Shown: in pieces, positions 669-40,848 of the stretch
Layout of the letters: each line of letters begins with the position of its first letter
How positions within the stretch are numbered: position 1 is the stretch's first letter
NCBI GenBank assembly: GCA_905233425.1
Contig: CAJOEC010000053.1
Coordinates: 27,681 to 91,680, forward strand
DNA length: 64,000 bases
Source of the DNA: an uncultured Prevotella sp.
GTDB taxonomy: Bacteria; Bacteroidota; Bacteroidia; Bacteroidales; Bacteroidaceae
Reading direction: 5' to 3'
The notes under the pieces: generated by a model
Databases searched by the model: none
What the model was told of the DNA's origin: nothing
What the model saw: the letters and a program-made list of their open reading frames with translations, nothing else
Program-made: the position numbers and the translations under genes

Positions 669-903
669 CTTGTTTTGCCCCTCATGCGTGGAGGAGGGCT
701 ACACTTTCATGTGACGCTATGCTGGCGGGGACTTCGCACTGCCCATATACATCGTCCTCTCACGACTTACTTTCTGCGTGCAAAGATAAGTCTTTTTTCC
801 GAATCCTCCAAACTTTTCTGCCCAAATCTCGTAAAAACGGTTAAATCTGCATCTCTTTTTGAAGATTTTTGCAAATTAATAAGGTGAATAGCGAAAAATT
901 GTG

Positions 904-911
904 TAATTTTG
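904..911 (+). promoter_or_regulatory. Candidate Bacteroidetes -7 element (TAATTTTG) upstream of the sigma-factor operon
   Basis: Matches TAnnTTTG; no convincing -33 at the expected spacing. Confidence 0.35.
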
Positions 912-940
912 AAGCGTGATTTTGCAATCACACATACATA

Positions 941-1068
941 TTGGCTCTTACATCAGCGAACTTGCACCTCGGAGATAAACGAGCCAAACAAAATCGAACA
1001 TTGGGCGTCGCGCCATAGTGCGCAGACGTTTCTATGGTTCGATTGGGCAGTGCTAGGCCTCGCTGATG
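941..1068 (+). other. Nested inverted-repeat leader (possible structured 5' UTR)
   Basis: CATCAGCGA (951-959)/TCGCTGATG (1060-1068); AATCGAAC (992-999)/GTTCGATT (1037-1044); CGTCGCGC (1006-1013)/GCGC-a-GACG (1020-1028); alternative TTGGCTC (941-947)/GAGCCAA (981-987). Confidence 0.55.
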
Positions 1069-1119
1069 CGTAGATTCGTTCTGCGCATTTTCGATATTGA
1101 TGACCTAATGACAATGTAA

Positions 1120-1686
1120 ATGGACTACGACCTCTACGATGACCAAGCTCTTGTCGATGGCATATTGAACAACGACAGGCGGCTGATAGAGTATTTCTTC
1201 AACAAGAAATGCTCCAAACTATTCGGGTATATCATTATAAACGTCTTTGACAACAACGTTGCCGACATGAAGGAACTGGCAAACGAGCTGTTCCTGTATC
1301 TGGCAAAGGATGACTGGTATAAGGTTCGCCAGTTTCACTTCAGAAGCAGTCTGATGACATGGATCCGTGTCGTTGCCACAAGATTCTTTCAGAAAAAACG
1401 TGAAGAGCTGATGGAAAAATCATCTCCAGTGGCTCTAAGTGATAAAATGTGGCAAGACCAAAGTGCGAGTATCTCCCTTGACAAACGGATTGACATACTT
1501 GCAGCCCTACAAAAGATGCCCAATGCCCGCTACCGTAAGGTCATCGAGGTGTTGGACTTACAGGATGTCCGCCCCGAACTATTAGCAGAAGAAATGAACA
1601 TAACAGTAGATAACTTGTATAACATTCACCGCCGTGCATTGGTGCAGCTTCGCCTCGTAATGGGCAGAAAGGAGGACTGGATATGA
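1120..1686 (+). CDS. ECF-type RNA polymerase sigma factor
   Basis: 188 aa; region 2-like segment (ELFLYLAKDDWYKVRQFHFRSSLMTWIRVVATRFF) and C-terminal HTH-like PELLAEEMNITVDNLYNIHRRALVQLRLVMG. Confidence 0.8.
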   Translation: MDYDLYDDQALVDGILNNDRRLIEYFFNKKCSKLFGYIIINVFDNNVADMKELANELFLYLAKDDWYKVRQFHFRSSLMTWIRVVATRFFQKKREELMEKSSPVALSDKMWQDQSASISLDKRIDILAALQKMPNARYRKVIEVLDLQDVRPELLAEEMNITVDNLYNIHRRALVQLRLVMGRKEDWI

Positions 1687-2129
1687 AAGACTTCAATGAC
1701 CTTTTGAATAGCGGTATCTCCGACGAGCTGTTGGCTGCCTACATAGACGGAAATACGACGGAAAGTGAGAATCAACTGATAGAAAGTTCCCTTAATGGCG
1801 ACTCTATGTTGTCAGAAGCCTACGAGATAGCCAACGACAGCGTTTCCTTCGGGAGCAATTTTGATTGGGAAATTCACAAAGGCGACTTCGGATTTTGGGA
1901 ATTAGGATTGCCACCAGCAGTGACAGAAGCTGATTTAATGGTACCAGCAGACACAAGCTATGGCAATATAACAAATGAAGGTACAGACTTTAGTCTTAAC
2001 CTTGATACTCTTAACCCTCTGAATGATGGCTTTACGCCATTGGATACTTCTACATCAGATGATTTAATGAATACAGATATTTCAGATGGATTGGATGGTG
2101 TAGATGATTTAGGAGATACATTATTATAA
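1683..2129 (+). CDS. Small acidic protein, possible cytosolic anti-sigma-like partner
   Basis: ATGA overlap with sigma gene; N-terminus ISDELLAAYIDGNTTESENQLIESSL resembles anti-sigma N-termini; no transmembrane segment; acidic C-terminus. Confidence 0.6.
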   Translation: MKDFNDLLNSGISDELLAAYIDGNTTESENQLIESSLNGDSMLSEAYEIANDSVSFGSNFDWEIHKGDFGFWELGLPPAVTEADLMVPADTSYGNITNEGTDFSLNLDTLNPLNDGFTPLDTSTSDDLMNTDISDGLDGVDDLGDTLL

Positions 2130-2144
2130 AAAAACTCTCTCAAC

Positions 2145-2702
2145 ATGACAAGTAATGCTAACTTAGGAACCTTAGGAACAGGTAGTTACAATATCTATTG
2201 TGAGGATGTCCTGCAGCAGTATGATGATACTTGTGCCATCAAGTCGCAACAATTAATACTGGAATCCAACGGAATAGACATTTCTGAACAGGAATTGCGT
2301 AATGAGGCCATGAGGTACGGATGGTATGCCCCTGGCTATGGCACACCTATGGAGGACGTTGGTAACCTTCTTGAGAATCATGGTATGGAGGTACACCGTT
2401 ACATGGATGCATCTATCTCAGATATTGCCACCGAGTTGTCGAAAGGACACCAAGTCATAGTTGGTGTTGATTCAGGAGAACTTTGGAATGCAGGCATCAA
2501 CGAAACTTTTGAAGATCTCATTTTTGGCGAACAAGCCGACCACGCTTTGATTGTTAGCGGAATTGTCATCGACCCATTCACGGCTGAACAAAACATCATC
2601 TTGACAGATCCAGGCACAGGAGATTTGTGTATTGAGTATCCTATTGAGCAGTTTGAAGATGCTTGGGATGACTCTGGAGATTATGTGATTGTTGCTGTTT
2701 AA
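2145..2702 (+). CDS. C39-like cysteine peptidase domain protein, no signal peptide
   Basis: QQYDDTCAIKSQQLIL (Cys), EQADHALIVSGI (His), ILTDPGTGD (Asp) in papain-like order. Confidence 0.7.
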   Translation: MTSNANLGTLGTGSYNIYCEDVLQQYDDTCAIKSQQLILESNGIDISEQELRNEAMRYGWYAPGYGTPMEDVGNLLENHGMEVHRYMDASISDIATELSKGHQVIVGVDSGELWNAGINETFEDLIFGEQADHALIVSGIVIDPFTAEQNIILTDPGTGDLCIEYPIEQFEDAWDDSGDYVIVAV

Positions 2703-2784
2703 AATAACTATGGTAGAGATTGAATCAGAGTCAAAACTTATTATAAATTTCAAATAAATCATTAATTTTAAAACTTTTACAATT

Positions 2785-3057
2785 ATGGAACCACTTTCAA
2801 TTCTAGCTTTAGCACTTTATGGAGCATATCAGGCTTCCCAAAGAAAGAAAAACTCAGGTAGTAGCCTTGGTTCGTCCACTCCTTACACGCCTCCGAAGAA
2901 GACAAAATCTGCTTCTCAGCCAGAAATAAAGAAAAAAACTGATACTCCTATGTGTCAACCCAAAAATATGCTTAGTGATAAAAAGAAAAAATCTGATACT
3001 CCCATGTGTCAGCCCAAAAATAAACTTAGTGATAACAACAAAAATAAAGCAGAATGA
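2785..3057 (+). CDS. Small Lys/Ser-rich protein with duplicated TPMCQPKN motif
   Basis: 90 aa ORF; hydrophobic N-terminus and tandem repeat (T/S)DTPMCQPKNxLSD. Confidence 0.55.
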   Translation: MEPLSILALALYGAYQASQRKKNSGSSLGSSTPYTPPKKTKSASQPEIKKKTDTPMCQPKNMLSDKKKKSDTPMCQPKNKLSDNNKNKAE

Positions 3058-3060
3058 ATT

Positions 3061-4710
3061 ATGTCTATTATTGTAGCAGGATTATTGGGTGCTGCAAAAA
3101 TTGCAGCAGGAATAATAGGAGCCAGAGCTGTTGGCAAAGGCATTAGTGCTATTGGAGAAAGAATCACTCCATACAACAAAAGTCGTAGTTATAAGCAAAT
3201 TGAACAACAATCCAATTCGGCAAAAGAAATTGAATTGATGAGAGAGGCATCTAATGAAAAGATGCAAAGGGAAAAGATCATTGCTGACAGAGAAAACATC
3301 ATTCTCAATCAAATGCTTAATCGCCAAAATGGAATGATTCAAGCCGAACAGAATGCATATCATTCTCTCCGTCATTCACTCATACAGGATGCAATTAGAA
3401 ACTTTCCTCTCAATATATCGCCTTTGGTGTTGCTGGAAAATAACGGAATTGATGTTCAGTTCCTTCTTCATGGCCCTGAAGTGAATGGCGAGGAACCAGA
3501 AATTACAAAAAGACGAAGGGAGTTTCATGAAGCCCTAAACGGAGGCAAGAAATATCAAGATTCTAAGTCTTTTATAGAGACTTTATCACATCCCAAACCG
3601 CTAAATGTCTTTATAACTCCGATGCATATTGATACACGTGTTGGGGGAAAGGATATCATTGCAGCCCAGGTCTATGACTCCGTTTATTCTTCATTAGAGT
3701 CTATTTTTGTAAATGAATACAGTCGTAATGGTGAGCGTCCCATTACATTTTATGCCACTGCATGGAATAGAAATGCAAAGGGCGGATTACACGCGGCAGA
3801 AGAATTATATTACTTCTTAAAAGAAATGCCTACGATTGTGATTGAACCAAGATTTGACGGGAAAACAATCAAACTAATGTTTTCGTGTTGGAAAATTGGT
3901 TATGACAGCAGTATACATTCAAGGCAGGAATTGGAAATGCCGTTGGACATAAATTCGATGTTAGCCATTGCAGCTTATGAGCGTTCCAAAAAGGCATTGG
4001 AATCTTTCAATAATATTGAATGCGGTAACAAGGTACTAAATGATCAAAAAACTATATATGAACACAACATAAGCATTTTTGAACAGCTCAATCTTGGTAA
4101 TAGAATCAGAAAACGTCTCGATGAGATTTGTGAGTTTGGATATTCATCCGAATTGGAGGAATTGGGAGATTATTCCAAGTTGTTATATACGAATCAGAAC
4201 GATATTTTTGGAATAGCAGATACCATTAGTGCAATTGCAGGCATGATGATATGTGCACTGGCAGATACCCACCACCTGTTAGCCAATGATATCGCTCCAC
4301 AATTTCCTCGTATCTATCAAAAATATTTTGGGGACTATCTTAAAGATTCTGAGTTGCGAAAAACTTTCAGTAAGATGTATGAAAGAACATATTATAGACT
4401 CAGTCGAGAGTTCCCCGATGCAGAACCTCGCAGGATAATGGAAAAGGAGAATGTTAAGAAACTCCTTGGAACTACCACAGTTGGCGAGTCTTTAGCTTCA
4501 CAGGATGTTTTGTTCTCGTTAAGAGAAAAGTGTGTACAGCTTGGAGCAGACAAGAACTTGTGTTACAAATGGGCAACAGAAAGACTAATAGATTTTTACA
4601 TTGAGAATATCGATGATGACGCTAAATTTCGACAAAGCATTATTCCATTTATGACTGAACAACAGAAGAAAAAATTGAGCAAAATATTAATGAATAGAAA
4701 ATTATTATGA
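3061..4710 (+). CDS. Unknown 549 aa protein, Gly/Ala-rich hydrophobic N-terminus then coiled coil
   Basis: Long ORF; 3' end overlaps next gene (ATGA). Confidence 0.75.
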   Translation: MSIIVAGLLGAAKIAAGIIGARAVGKGISAIGERITPYNKSRSYKQIEQQSNSAKEIELMREASNEKMQREKIIADRENIILNQMLNRQNGMIQAEQNAYHSLRHSLIQDAIRNFPLNISPLVLLENNGIDVQFLLHGPEVNGEEPEITKRRREFHEALNGGKKYQDSKSFIETLSHPKPLNVFITPMHIDTRVGGKDIIAAQVYDSVYSSLESIFVNEYSRNGERPITFYATAWNRNAKGGLHAAEELYYFLKEMPTIVIEPRFDGKTIKLMFSCWKIGYDSSIHSRQELEMPLDINSMLAIAAYERSKKALESFNNIECGNKVLNDQKTIYEHNISIFEQLNLGNRIRKRLDEICEFGYSSELEELGDYSKLLYTNQNDIFGIADTISAIAGMMICALADTHHLLANDIAPQFPRIYQKYFGDYLKDSELRKTFSKMYERTYYRLSREFPDAEPRRIMEKENVKKLLGTTTVGESLASQDVLFSLREKCVQLGADKNLCYKWATERLIDFYIENIDDDAKFRQSIIPFMTEQQKKKLSKILMNRKLL

Positions 4711-6629
4711 TGTACGTAACTTTAGATTTTGGTTCGGCAAACTCAGGAGCACTGTTAAATCCTATAGGAAAAGGGTATAATCGCAGTGACTTAGTACACC
4801 TTCATGAACAAAGAGGATTTACTAAACAACCTACTGTCTTTTGGATTAAAAAGGAACTATTAGAAAAAGATTTAGATACTGCTTCTGATATATTAAGAAT
4901 ATATTCTTGTGTTTTTTTTGAATCTGAATATGCAGAAAATCCAAATTTTATCTGGTGTCATACACAAACCCGAGATAAAATAGCGATAATTGCCAAAGAC
5001 AACAACTGGGTCTGTTTTCGCTATCCTAAAATGGTACTATACAAAAAAGATACAGATCTAAGAATTAAAGGTAGTGATGGCAGGTTTTATGACTTGTCTC
5101 ATATATTGACACTTTTCTTCTTTGTAATAAAGAAAGAATGTTTGCAGAGAATGAGAAATGGGGGCTGGATAGAAGATGAAATAAGTTGGGGGGTTACCGT
5201 TCCTGGGATGGCAATATGGCAAGATAAAGCACGAGAGACAATGCGAAAATGTGCACAAAAAGTTTTTGGAACAAACTTAACATTGTATTCTGAGCCAGAG
5301 TGTGCGTTAATTGGCATCAACATAGGAAAGGCTAATTTTGAACATTTTGTAGATGGTCATTACATATTAGTTACTGATCTTGGTGGAGGTACTGCGGATA
5401 TTTCGGTGCTTCAAGTCATTCAAAACAAAGAAACTAAGAGAATTAAGTTCAAAGAAATAAAGGCAACTTCCAAGGATAAAGATGCCACAATAAGTATTCA
5501 TGCTGGCGGTAATGATATTGATGACTACTTTCACATATTTTTTTGCAATACGATAGCGAAAGGGGTGAACCTTCCAGATGATCCAACTCAGCTGCTATGG
5601 ACAGACTTTCAAAACGATTGTCCTGATGGTGCGATGGACTTTGATTGGGAATGGCATAATAGAATACAGTATGAGCCAGGCGAAATTTGGAACGAAGCTT
5701 CTATTCATTTCAATCCTGGTAGAAAATATATAGCATGGTTAGATGAACATTACCCAAAAGTCGCTGACATAGCATTGTCTAAATATGGAGATTTTACTCT
5801 TGACAAAGGCGAATTATTGGATGAGGTGTTTAAACAAGTTCATGATAAGATTCTTAATGAATTAACAGAAATCTTAGCAAATTTGAAACATAACAATATC
5901 GAATTAGATCAAGTTCTATTTGCTGGTGGCCTTAGTTTGGATTTCCGCCTTAGCAAATCTATAAAGGAACTCGTTCAATCAAATTTCAAATATGCCCAGT
6001 TCTCAGAAACCAGCAAAGGAGCTGTTATTGGAGCTGTTCAGACAGGTGGTAACCATGTGGCGGTGACTGATGGATTAGTTGAAAGGTTGGCGCGAAAGAC
6101 ATATTATACAGATTTTGTTTTGGAATATGATGGAAACGACGAAGATTTCAAAAAGAGGTTATTTGGTCAACAACGGAAATATTACAAGAAATTGGATGAC
6201 AATATTTGGCTAACTGATGACATACTTGAAAAAGCATTCCAAGAGCAGGCTTTAATGATGCGAAATTGTATCAATTACGCTTCCCAATGGATCTCATATA
6301 TAGTTCCGTTTTGCTTGAGATATTCTTCGGCATCGCAAAAACAACACATTAAAATTTTTCCTGTAAATAGAGGTAATCAAACAAGGACATCGGTTAGTGT
6401 TTATTCTTCTGACAAGAATCTCATGCTGTTTCCGGGAGATTCTGAAGACCTTTTTGAGGAAGGAACATTTGACTATGATTTTGGTTATAATTGGGAGGAA
6501 GCAGAGTTAGTGTTTGACCCTATTTCTTCTAACCCTGTAGAAGGTTCTGCATACTTTATTTTGAATGATGCAAATGGCAGAGAATTACACAAATTTCTAA
6601 TTAAAAACGTTACTAAAAAAGGATTATAA
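4707..6629 (+). CDS. Hsp70/actin-fold ATPase-like protein
   Basis: Phosphate-1 (VTLDFGSANSG), phosphate-2 (VTDLGGGTADISVLQ), adenosine-type motif (VLFAGGLSLDFRLSKSIKELV). Confidence 0.75.
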   Translation: MMYVTLDFGSANSGALLNPIGKGYNRSDLVHLHEQRGFTKQPTVFWIKKELLEKDLDTASDILRIYSCVFFESEYAENPNFIWCHTQTRDKIAIIAKDNNWVCFRYPKMVLYKKDTDLRIKGSDGRFYDLSHILTLFFFVIKKECLQRMRNGGWIEDEISWGVTVPGMAIWQDKARETMRKCAQKVFGTNLTLYSEPECALIGINIGKANFEHFVDGHYILVTDLGGGTADISVLQVIQNKETKRIKFKEIKATSKDKDATISIHAGGNDIDDYFHIFFCNTIAKGVNLPDDPTQLLWTDFQNDCPDGAMDFDWEWHNRIQYEPGEIWNEASIHFNPGRKYIAWLDEHYPKVADIALSKYGDFTLDKGELLDEVFKQVHDKILNELTEILANLKHNNIELDQVLFAGGLSLDFRLSKSIKELVQSNFKYAQFSETSKGAVIGAVQTGGNHVAVTDGLVERLARKTYYTDFVLEYDGNDEDFKKRLFGQQRKYYKKLDDNIWLTDDILEKAFQEQALMMRNCINYASQWISYIVPFCLRYSSASQKQHIKIFPVNRGNQTRTSVSVYSSDKNLMLFPGDSEDLFEEGTFDYDFGYNWEEAELVFDPISSNPVEGSAYFILNDANGRELHKFLIKNVTKKGL

Positions 6630-6631
6630 TT

Positions 6632-7417
6632 ATGAGTGAACTTGATAATTTACTGTTCTTGGTAGAGAAAAGAATTACAGACAGCAATAGTGGTATTATT
6701 ACAGATATTCAACAAAAGATACCTATGGGATATATAGAACAAAAAATTAGAGAGTGGCTTTTGCCAGAAATAAAAAGAATCAATGAAACTATTGAATCTC
6801 AATCAAGAAGGATTCAAGAGTTGGAGCGTAGTAACTCACAATTAAATGATTTACTTAAAGAAGAAAAGGAAAAGAATGAAAAGATAAAAAGTAGGTTGGA
6901 TGAACTCACATCTAACGCTAATAGTGAGAGAGTTCGTTTAGAAAAAAATTATAGTCAAGGGGTTACGGAATTTCAAAAGCTTAATCGAAAGATGACAGAT
7001 TATATACGCAAATTCGATGAAGTGGGCTGCTCATATATATTAGAAATGATTACGGAATATTTTTACATTCATTCTCAAAAATTGAAAGATGAAATATTAG
7101 CAGAATTTGAAAAGGAGAAAGTTGAATTACCTGTTATGAATATATTAGATGATATAGACAAATTCGACAAAACGTATAGACCTAATATTGATAGATTCTT
7201 AGGACTCATCAATTCAAGTTTAGACAAATGTTTAATTTTTCCCAAAGAACGCTATTTCATATCCCGAGATATGGAGTCAGTAACAGGACGTAACATCAAG
7301 GATGGAAGTCCTGTATTTATCATAGGATTGGGCTATGATTTCCCAGTAATCGATATTCCCTCTCAAAAGCCTTCTGTATTTCCAAAAGATGCTGATATTG
7401 TGAAGAATGACAATTAG
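6632..7417 (+). CDS. Coiled-coil protein, possibly GrpE-like cofactor of the adjacent Hsp70-like protein
   Basis: 261 aa with long heptad-like segment INETIESQSRRIQELERSNSQLNDLLKEEKEKNEKIKSRLDEL; 2 bp downstream of the Hsp70-like gene. Confidence 0.6.
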   Translation: MSELDNLLFLVEKRITDSNSGIITDIQQKIPMGYIEQKIREWLLPEIKRINETIESQSRRIQELERSNSQLNDLLKEEKEKNEKIKSRLDELTSNANSERVRLEKNYSQGVTEFQKLNRKMTDYIRKFDEVGCSYILEMITEYFYIHSQKLKDEILAEFEKEKVELPVMNILDDIDKFDKTYRPNIDRFLGLINSSLDKCLIFPKERYFISRDMESVTGRNIKDGSPVFIIGLGYDFPVIDIPSQKPSVFPKDADIVKNDN

Positions 7418-7426
7418 TATATAATT

Positions 7427-8266
7427 ATGTTAGATAGCATATATGAGTTAGTACAACATGGTGGGGCGGATGTCCTTAGAGAGACTTTTAATAATGTCTT
7501 GGATTCCTCTTTAGCTGTAGAGGATTATGGAATGATGAGCGATGCTTTGACTGACCATACATTCTCTGTAGACAGCTTATCCACCTCAGATTCTATGTGC
7601 TACTCATTTCAGTATGATAACACTTCAATAGAAGTCCCTCTTGATAATAATATTTCAGCTATATCCTTTGGAAGTAGTATAGATGATTTGTATGACCCTC
7701 AAATTCAATCTGCGCATGACGATGTAATGTACCATCGTCATGCCGCAGACGATGCTCGCACTTATGATGATTTAATTCATCATCGGCACGAAGAAATTTC
7801 AGCAATAGAGAGTGAAGAATATTGGATTGACTCAAAATATGACGCAGAAAATGAGCACATGAAAGTTGAGGCAGAGCGTGAGTATCAGGAATTTCTAAAC
7901 AAACAGTATAGCATTTCCCATGTCGAAAACCTCTATAATGATGTCTATGGTAGAAGTAATGAAATTAGTTTTGGAAGTTCTGATGATCATCTATTAGCTG
8001 ATAATGGAAGTTCCTCCATCTCATTTAAAGGCTGGCAAGAAGATGCTCGTAATGTCGCTGCCTCAGAACTTCAAAGCAAATTGAACACCTTCCACATATA
8101 TTACCCAGGTACTTTGTCATCAGATTCTACTTTTGGGGGATGGGATCGATATACAGGAAAGAAAATACATGATGCCATTCAAAATGCCAGGAACTCAGGA
8201 GCTATTTCAGACACCATATACAAAGAGCTGATGAGGGATTTGAAGAAAGCATGTTACTTTCAATGA
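7427..8266 (+). CDS. Unknown 279 aa protein with repeated ISFGSS motif
   Basis: ORF in tight operon; AISFGSSIDD, EISFGSSDDH, SISFKGW segments. Confidence 0.65.
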   Translation: MLDSIYELVQHGGADVLRETFNNVLDSSLAVEDYGMMSDALTDHTFSVDSLSTSDSMCYSFQYDNTSIEVPLDNNISAISFGSSIDDLYDPQIQSAHDDVMYHRHAADDARTYDDLIHHRHEEISAIESEEYWIDSKYDAENEHMKVEAEREYQEFLNKQYSISHVENLYNDVYGRSNEISFGSSDDHLLADNGSSSISFKGWQEDARNVAASELQSKLNTFHIYYPGTLSSDSTFGGWDRYTGKKIHDAIQNARNSGAISDTIYKELMRDLKKACYFQ

Positions 8267-27777: not shown

Positions 27778-27914
27778 TATTAACGAACTTTATATACGTA
27801 TATGACACATTTGTTACCTGTATTTGCCTGGCATTAGGCCGTAGCTATCCGGAAAAATATTCCATGACTAACACAAAAACCCGCTGAAAAATCAACGGGT
27901 TCTATTGTTGGGTG

Positions 27915-28310
27915 TGGAGCTGGAGGGAGTCGAACCCTCGTCCGCACGAGGAAACCATACGCTTTCTACACGCTTATTCCAGACTATGTTTTCGTGCCGT
28001 GGCAAGACCTGGACCACCAACCGCGACCTTATCTCCTAAAACTTCATCACGGCATCGGAGCCTGACGTGACTATTTCCGATTTACCTGCGCCGCCTTGTC
28101 CTCAGATTCGGAACCACACCCTTGGGGCGACGTCTCGTTCCTCTACCTTGTAGTGGAATTAAGCCAGTAGTCTACTGTACTTCGACTAGGCAGCGAGAGC
28201 ATACTCGTTGTTGCCAATTAATTTTTCGACCGAAGAGATTATGGAGCCTACAGTCGCCGCTCCGCGTGCTTACGTACCATCTCATCTCGCCGTCAAATCC
28301 AGTCAACCCC
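27915..28310 (-). ncRNA. ssrA: Transfer-messenger RNA (tag GNNEYALAA)
   Basis: Reverse-strand 5' GGGGTTGACTGGATTTGACGG, 3' GGTTCGACTCCCTCCAGCTCCA, internal ORF GGCAACAACGAGTATGCTCTCGCTGCCTAG. Confidence 0.95.
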
Positions 28311-40699: not shown

Positions 40700-40774
40700 A
40701 CAGCCACAACGAATCATACAATAATAATGAAACCGCAAAACACCTTTGGATGTCTTGCGGTTCCTTTTTCTTTG

Positions 40775-40848
40775 AGCCTCTTGTCGGATTCGAACCAACG
40801 ACCCCGAGATTACAAATCACGTGCTCTGGCCAACTGAGCTAAAGAGGC
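40775..40848 (-). tRNA. tRNA-Thr (TGT)
   Basis: Reverse strand GCCTCTTTAGCTCAGTTGGCCAGAGCACGTGATTTGTAATCTCGGGGTCGTTGGTTCGAATCCGACAAGAGGCT. Confidence 0.93.

Follow-up and report, generated by a model that had tools for sequence, protein, structure and literature searches.

The leader and its genomic setting

Positions 904-1119 of the window, as the whole 64,000-nt stretch of DNA analysed here is called, lie on a contig (C53) of a 4.9-Mb genome (G000) of an uncultured Prevotella sp. They form a leader in front of an operon (1120-8266) that encodes, in order, an ECF-type sigma factor, a 148-aa protein, a C39-like peptidase, a small protein, a 549-aa protein, an HSP70/actin-like ATPase, a coiled-coil protein and a 279-aa protein, most of which have no Pfam family. 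The sigma factor matches the NCBIfam model sigma70-ECF at E=4e-8, a match below the curated cut-off of that model, and no other match to this protein was found in its own genome at E<=0.1. The features at the start of the leader and the first gene are as follows.

904-911, plus strand: -7 element, sequence TAATTTTG (Bacteroidota consensus TAnnTTTG)
916-931, plus strand: P0, a 5' hairpin GTGATT-ttgc-AATCAC (916-921/926-931), where the transcript is expected to begin
1120-1686, plus strand: first gene, ECF-type sigma-70 factor of 188 aa

An earlier note on this DNA had claimed a -7-like element upstream of a set of inverted repeats, and TAATTTTG is indeed present at 904-911. Of 81 Prevotella-type copies of the leader, 69 have the consensus TAnnTTTG at a distance of 15-90 nt upstream, as against 6 in shuffled sequence, and a hairpin at the P0 position was better than in shuffles (p<=0.05) in 42 of 69 Prevotella-type copies. 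RNA folding, which the note had proposed as a check, bears out a structured leader (z = -2.96), with none of 200 shuffles equally stable.

Three other features of the window were observed. An ORF of 17 codons (beginning ATGCGTAGATTC) at 1066-1119 starts in the 3' strand of helix P2, described below, and its TAA abuts the ATG of the sigma gene; this frame is not conserved in relatives. A tmRNA with the tag GNNEYALAA lies at 27912-28310 and a tRNA-Thr(tgt) at 40774-40848, both on the minus strand.

Covarying helices of the knotted core

The helices of the core, in window coordinates, are listed by strand.

941-947, plus strand: P1 5' strand TTGGCTC, pairs with 981-987
951-959, plus strand: P2 5' strand CATCAGCGA, within the P1 loop, pairs with 1060-1068
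961-967, plus strand: P3 5' strand CTTGCAC, situated within the loop of P1, pairs with 1050-1056 in the P5 loop
981-987, plus strand: P1 3' strand GAGCCAA, pairs with 941-947 (7/7); P1 crosses P2, a pseudoknot
992-999, plus strand: P4a 5' strand AATCGAAC, pairs with 1037-1044
1005-1029, plus strand: P4b, apical stem GCGTCGCGC / GTGCGCAGACGT (1005-1013/1018-1029), candidate antiterminator
1037-1044, plus strand: P4a 3' strand GTTCGATT, pairs with 992-999 (8/8)
1046-1059, plus strand: P5, 3-bp hairpin GGC..GCC (1046-1048/1057-1059), displays the P3 3' strand (kissing loop)
1050-1056, plus strand: P3 3' strand GTGCTAG, part of the P5 loop, pairs with 961-967
1060-1068, plus strand: P2 3' strand TCGCTGATG, pairs with 951-959 (9/9)

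P4a and P4b together make up one long hairpin, P4, and P3 is a loop-loop interaction that joins the P1 loop to the P5 loop. The nested repeats claimed in the earlier note (951-959/1060-1068, 992-999/1037-1044 and 1006-1013/1020-1028) are all present, the last with a bulged A. The pairing 941-947/981-987, which the note had taken for a mutually exclusive alternative resembling a two-state switch, also exists, but it has no base in common with 951-959/1060-1068 and does not exclude it. It is a coexisting pseudoknot helix, and P1 and P2 covary in the same sequences. Elements that had been overlooked are P3 (961-967/1050-1056), P5, P0 and, in the tail, P6 (1017-1026/1080-1089).

BLASTN against the window's own genome returned two more copies, one (L002, 69% identity to the window) upstream of a BspA-type leucine-rich-repeat protein and the other (L003) upstream of a small membrane protein, and searches of 100 same-genus genomes returned about 20 additional copies. 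Two alignments were analysed. The first (A2) is a MAFFT alignment of 22 copies, which was scanned for runs of complementary columns with no structure supplied; the second (A3) holds 94 distinct copies aligned to a covariance model. A3 is fitted to P2, P3 and P4 and hence leans towards them, whereas A2 is not so fitted.

The blind scan of A2 gave as its top runs P2, P6, P3, the P6 extension and P1; because of gaps, P4a and P5 were placed in the structure by eye. For P2, P3 and P4 together, 24 of 31 pairs in A2 change on both sides, with a score of 0.567 against 0.194 in shuffled alignments and at most 0.137 when slid. P1, P6 and its extension scored 0.290 (0.163 shuffled, at most 0.113 slid), with 94% of cells paired, and all core helices including pseudoknots scored 0.488 against 0.174. 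In A3 both sides vary at every one of the 31 scored pairs, and the score is 0.842 against 0.225 shuffled. The shuffle control is inflated by related sequences; the slide control preserves relatedness and was equally clear. An independent set at the order and class levels also shows covariation in the helices.

Individual helices agree with these totals. P1 is paired in 93.9% of cells in 22 homologues, with UA/GC covariation. Among the 94 distinct copies, all nine pairs of P2, all seven of P3 and all ten model pairs of P4a change on both sides, and pairing reaches 96.4% of cells in P2, 99.2% in P3 (where the window copy has one U-U mismatch) and 97.4% in P4b. P5 is paired in 98.4% of cells, with a CG/UA change at one pair.

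Compensatory changes above both the shuffle and the slide controls, taken here as the mark of a conserved structured RNA, are thus present. The repeats are beyond chance, since the same helices were recovered without prior assumption from 22 homologues and covary far above both controls; the absence of covariation in homologous leaders, which the earlier note had named as grounds for refuting it, was not what was found. Comparison of the copies makes it close to certain that the leader represents a distinct family of structured RNA.

Competing pairings in the tail

The strand between P2 and the gene, here called the tail, pairs back to the apex of P4.

1017-1026, plus strand: P6 5' strand AGTGCGCAGA, a strand in common with P4b
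1031-1036, plus strand: P6 extension 5' strand TCTATG, pairs with CGTAGA at 1069-1074
1069-1074, plus strand: P6 extension 3' strand CGTAGA, pairs with 1031-1036
1080-1089, plus strand: P6 3' strand TCTGCGCATT, in the tail, pairs with 1017-1026
1088-1091, plus strand: U-run after P6, weak in the window (TTTT), 5-8 T in most relatives

In the window P6 has an 8-bp core (1019-1026/1080-1087) and reaches 10 bp with two extra pairs. The helix corresponding to its extension is 99.1% paired in 22 homologues and has three covarying pairs. When the P4 apex was compared with the tail in each of the 94 distinct copies, the best helix measured 11 bp at the median, and in 81 it was significant against shuffled tails (p<=0.05). 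At least five T in the eight positions after P6 were found in 87 of these copies, against a background of 16% in upstream sequence, and the P6 5' strand overlaps the P4b 3' strand in 91. The same was seen in 35 class- and order-level copies that were detected without P6 in the model, 31 of which have the U-run (at least five T) and 29 a helix at p<=0.05. Thus, at the level of sequence, a GC-rich helix is followed by a U-run and competes with an upstream helix, as in an attenuator with an intrinsic terminator. The two-state switch that the earlier note had suspected has a counterpart in these conserved, mutually exclusive pairings, P4b and P6, although the note had named the wrong pair.

The energies of the two states were calculated by nested folding, with the pseudoknot helices left out. 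When the P4a 5' strand was omitted, P6 was locally more stable than P4b by a median of 5.7 kcal/mol; when the whole of P4 was included, the P4 state was favoured by a median of 12.9 kcal/mol. For the window copy the two nested states (-63.9 and -63.7) lie within 0.2 kcal/mol of each other. Taken together, these energies are as expected of a switch. As nested folding predicts the P4 state to prevail at equilibrium in most copies, P6 may need kinetics to form or may coexist with P4a as a further pseudoknot.

The exclusive pairings in the window's subtype (the window, L002, L011, L012 and L013) also include a local 3' hairpin, in which both P6 3' strands are complementary to one another. In the window this hairpin, GATGCGTAGA-ttcgt-TCTGCGCATT at 1065-1089, ends in the U-run and overlaps the P2 3' strand. 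Separately, a subset of Prevotella-type copies (L050, L053, L057, L067, L069, L081, L090 and others) has a further hairpin (GTTAGTGCTA...TAGTATTAAC) after the U-run and ahead of the start codon, and an inverted repeat just past the U-run was found at p<=0.05 in 21 of 94 copies, of all types.

As the earlier note had held, no coding sequence accounts for the leader: the ATGG present in most Prevotella-type tails enters the P6 strand in all three frames across copies. A leader peptide was accordingly rejected, as no frame is conserved and, in the alignments read by eye, the spacing from ATGG to the tail varies and all three frames are occupied. By the same reading, ATGG is absent in much of the distant clade. 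The leader is a structured, multi-helix, non-coding and probably regulatory element.

In distant copies the letters differ, but P2, P3, P4b, P6 and the U-run are all kept. For example, P6 is GCGCAGAC/GTCTGCGC in Prevotella and CGTGGGC/GTCCCACG elsewhere. In the distant clade, read by eye, the P4a 5' strand stands before and not after the P1 3' strand, and this changed position indicates that the strand order was rearranged while the helices persisted. The tail of this clade has a second covarying partner, P7, a short way ahead of the start codon, and their pairing reaches p<=0.05 in 25 of 68 copies (for example AAGTCCCA/TGGGACTT, CAGTTCCA/TGGAACTG and GGTTCCA/TGGAACC). A terminator does not need this pairing, which counts against a pure terminator and would fit a switch that acts on translation or mRNA stability instead, its tail exchanging between P6 and P7 and its U-run serving as a linker or as a landing stretch for the ribosome or S1. 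We consider this unlikely, because the tail pairs with P7 in just 10 of the 82 copies of Prevotella type, the window copy not among them, and because a U-run placed exactly past the GC-rich P6 helix would be left unexplained.

Distribution, target genes and proposed mechanism

By sequence comparison, positions 904-1119 are one copy of an RNA family of Bacteroidia that forms the 5' leader of many genes. A covariance model (R1) found it in 97 of 200 same-genus genomes, with seven copies in the window's own genome, in 69 of 201 genomes of the family (13 of 30 genera), in 21 of 295 of the order and in 2 of 295 of the class. A second model (R2), built from A3, found it in 76 of 247 genomes of the order (61 of 174 genera), several of which have at least ten copies, in 45 of 295 of the class and in 15 of 198 of the phylum, with one weak match only outside the class; the E-values of both models are rough. 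Named hosts, with copies confirmed by R2, are Segatella copri iAQ1173, Xylanibacter ruminicola and Prevotella sp. ne3005. As a control of specificity, contigs were collected with a loose sequence pattern, and the model matched only those of Prevotella or Bacteroidales; it had no match in the chance pattern contigs of Arthrobacter, Rhodanobacter, Gemmatimonadaceae and Bacilli. Viral contigs gave one loose pattern match, rejected by the model, and none of the distant type.

Several loci had peculiarities of their own. L014 (G006:C76 714-802) is incomplete: beyond the P4 apex, up to which it is intact, the sequence is unrelated, as though recombination had cut the element. L301 has near-identical leaders at 559-722 and 1684-1847, 1.1 kb apart and each before a paralogue of one exported protein; the pair is a duplication of leader plus gene. 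Many copies in G413, G569 and G475 are no more than a few hundred bases from the start of a contig, which suggests that repeats near the element break the assembly. L108 and L111, from different families of the order, have in common a segment GCCCGACACGAAT(T/C)AGGG just before the start codon.

Multiple copies, copies near contig ends, the fusion to foreign sequence in L014 and the tandem duplication in L301 would also be expected of a DNA feature, such as an attC-like recombination hairpin or a MITE, that spreads genes or itself. This explanation is scarcely credible. Selection acts on one strand, with G-U pairs, and the element has a promoter, a U-run and an orientation to the gene; copies within a genome diverge (69% identity between the window and L002, 69-87% within G475), and the element is nearly absent from viral contigs. 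An integron attC site in particular was dropped, as the resemblance to GCGTTA is confined to a P1 strand in the distant clade.

In 135 of 150 distinct copies an ORF of at least 60 aa on the same strand begins no further than 200 nt downstream, at a median distance of 60 nt; a divergent ORF begins within 200 nt upstream in 26. A signal-peptide-like start was found in 82 of the 103 ORFs of at least 150 aa (80%) as against 120 of 469 in the background (26%); the rule is simple and home-made and the background includes some spurious ORFs, so the contrast is meaningful and the exact figures are not. Pfam searches of 79 downstream proteins identified BspA-type leucine-rich repeats in nine and diverse families in others, with no common family beyond those repeats. 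A promoter upstream, a close gene on the same strand and unrelated genes behind different copies are the features of a cis-regulatory leader. The earlier note had assigned the leader to the sigma-factor operon, which it does precede; that claim is too narrow, as the family stands mostly before genes for exported proteins. The sigma-factor gene is an atypical target, and a sigma-factor-specific role was rejected because the genome's six remaining copies lie in front of other genes.

These positions also bear on whether the element is a free-standing small RNA with its own promoter, P6 as its terminator and an incidental downstream gene. Its promoter, terminator-like end and multiple copies suit that description, but the close same-strand ORFs, the few divergent ones, the bias to exported proteins and, in the window, a spacing of only 30 nt from P6 to the ATG at 1120 make it very improbable.

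We favour a transcription-attenuating, riboswitch-like leader, with a probability of roughly 0.6 on the sequence evidence. First, homologues occur in the same genome and genus and every helix covaries. Secondly, P6 and its U-run follow a core with which P6 shares a strand of P4b. Lastly, a promoter lies upstream and an ORF downstream. Counted against attenuation are the loop of P6, which at about 40-60 nt is unusually long for a terminator, though the P6 extension and P5 bridge part of it; a U-run of only four U in the window itself; the equilibrium advantage of the P4 state predicted by nested folding; and target genes without a common metabolic theme to name a ligand.

The proposed order of elements is promoter, P0, P1 (whose loop holds the 5' strands of P2 and P3), P4, P5, P2 closing the knot, tail, U-run and gene. 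In the ON state the compact P1-P5 fold would hold P4b together and RNA polymerase would read through. In the OFF state, with the fold unstabilised, the tail would invade P4b and P6 would form before the U-run as an intrinsic terminator. The aptamer-like core and the terminator need the same strand, so that any signal stabilising the core, be it a metabolite, an ion, a protein or an RNA, would switch the gene in the manner of a riboswitch, presumably on; the direction is inferred. In the window's subtype the local hairpin at 1065-1089, overlapping P2, could act as the terminator or aid it.

The lack of a ligand theme and the strong association with exported proteins could instead point to a fixed structural leader that protects or localises the mRNA and does not switch. 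P4a and P6 are topologically compatible and could form together as an extra pseudoknot. However, P4b and P6 lie on the same strand and both are kept by covariation, which a single fixed structure does not require, and this explanation appears rather improbable. For the attenuator, diverse targets argue for a general signal and not a pathway metabolite. More tentatively, and at somewhat under even odds, the leaders may constitute a new, Bacteroidia-specific class of RNA sensors or riboswitches, through which a single common signal inside the cell acts by multi-strand terminator exchange on a scattered regulon of largely surface and secreted proteins.

If the attenuator reading is true, the element would be a common, previously unlisted regulatory RNA of bacteria of the gut and rumen; roughly half of the same-genus genomes searched have it, many of them in several copies. 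Most genes behind it encode uncharacterised exported proteins, so it would offer a handle on surface control in these bacteria, and as a defined orphan RNA it would allow its trigger to be sought directly.

No family of Rfam 15 matched the element at the gathering threshold in the window and 40 other loci, and at E up to 10, including window positions 700-1300, only chance-level matches to the 4227 families were found. Comparative genomics has identified Flavo-1, Bacteroidales-1 and other structured RNA motifs in Bacteroidetes (PMC2864571), and Flavo-1 was observed in flavobacterial 5' regions (PMC9723704). The main texts of these papers and of PMC8040213 and PMC7366714 contain nothing recognisable as the element. 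It could conceivably have been described before, among the 224 RNAs of Weinberg et al. 2017 or as an unnamed candidate of PMC8040213.

The element is like Flavo-1 and Bacteroidales-1 in being a structured RNA of Bacteroidetes and unlike them in matching none of the Rfam families. It has a superficial likeness to HDV-like ribozymes in its strand order (P1-P2-P1'-P4-P2'), which had suggested such a ribozyme. This was rejected because P3 joins the P1 loop to the P5 loop and does not lie inside the P1 loop; in addition, no Rfam model matches and a terminator-like tail follows. The cobalamin riboswitch (RF00174) has a loop-loop kissing interaction in Bacteroidota leaders as well, but its helix order and conserved nucleotides differ, and Rfam places RF00174 elsewhere in L103 (990-1192, minus strand), near, yet separate from, a copy of the element. 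Trp-type attenuators resemble the distant clade, in which P4b and P7 against P6 form a four-strand exchange (strands a-b and c-d against b-c); they differ in that the element has a large pseudoknot core and no conserved leader peptide. Attenuating riboswitches (purine, SAM-I and cobalamin) share with the element a 5' leader, a compact knotted core, an antiterminator and terminator on a common strand, a U-run and multiple copies per genome, whereas its fold is in no Rfam family and its targets, mostly unrelated exported proteins, suggest no ligand. The kind of system appears to be that of a riboswitch-like attenuator, and its fold, distribution and target set appear to be new.
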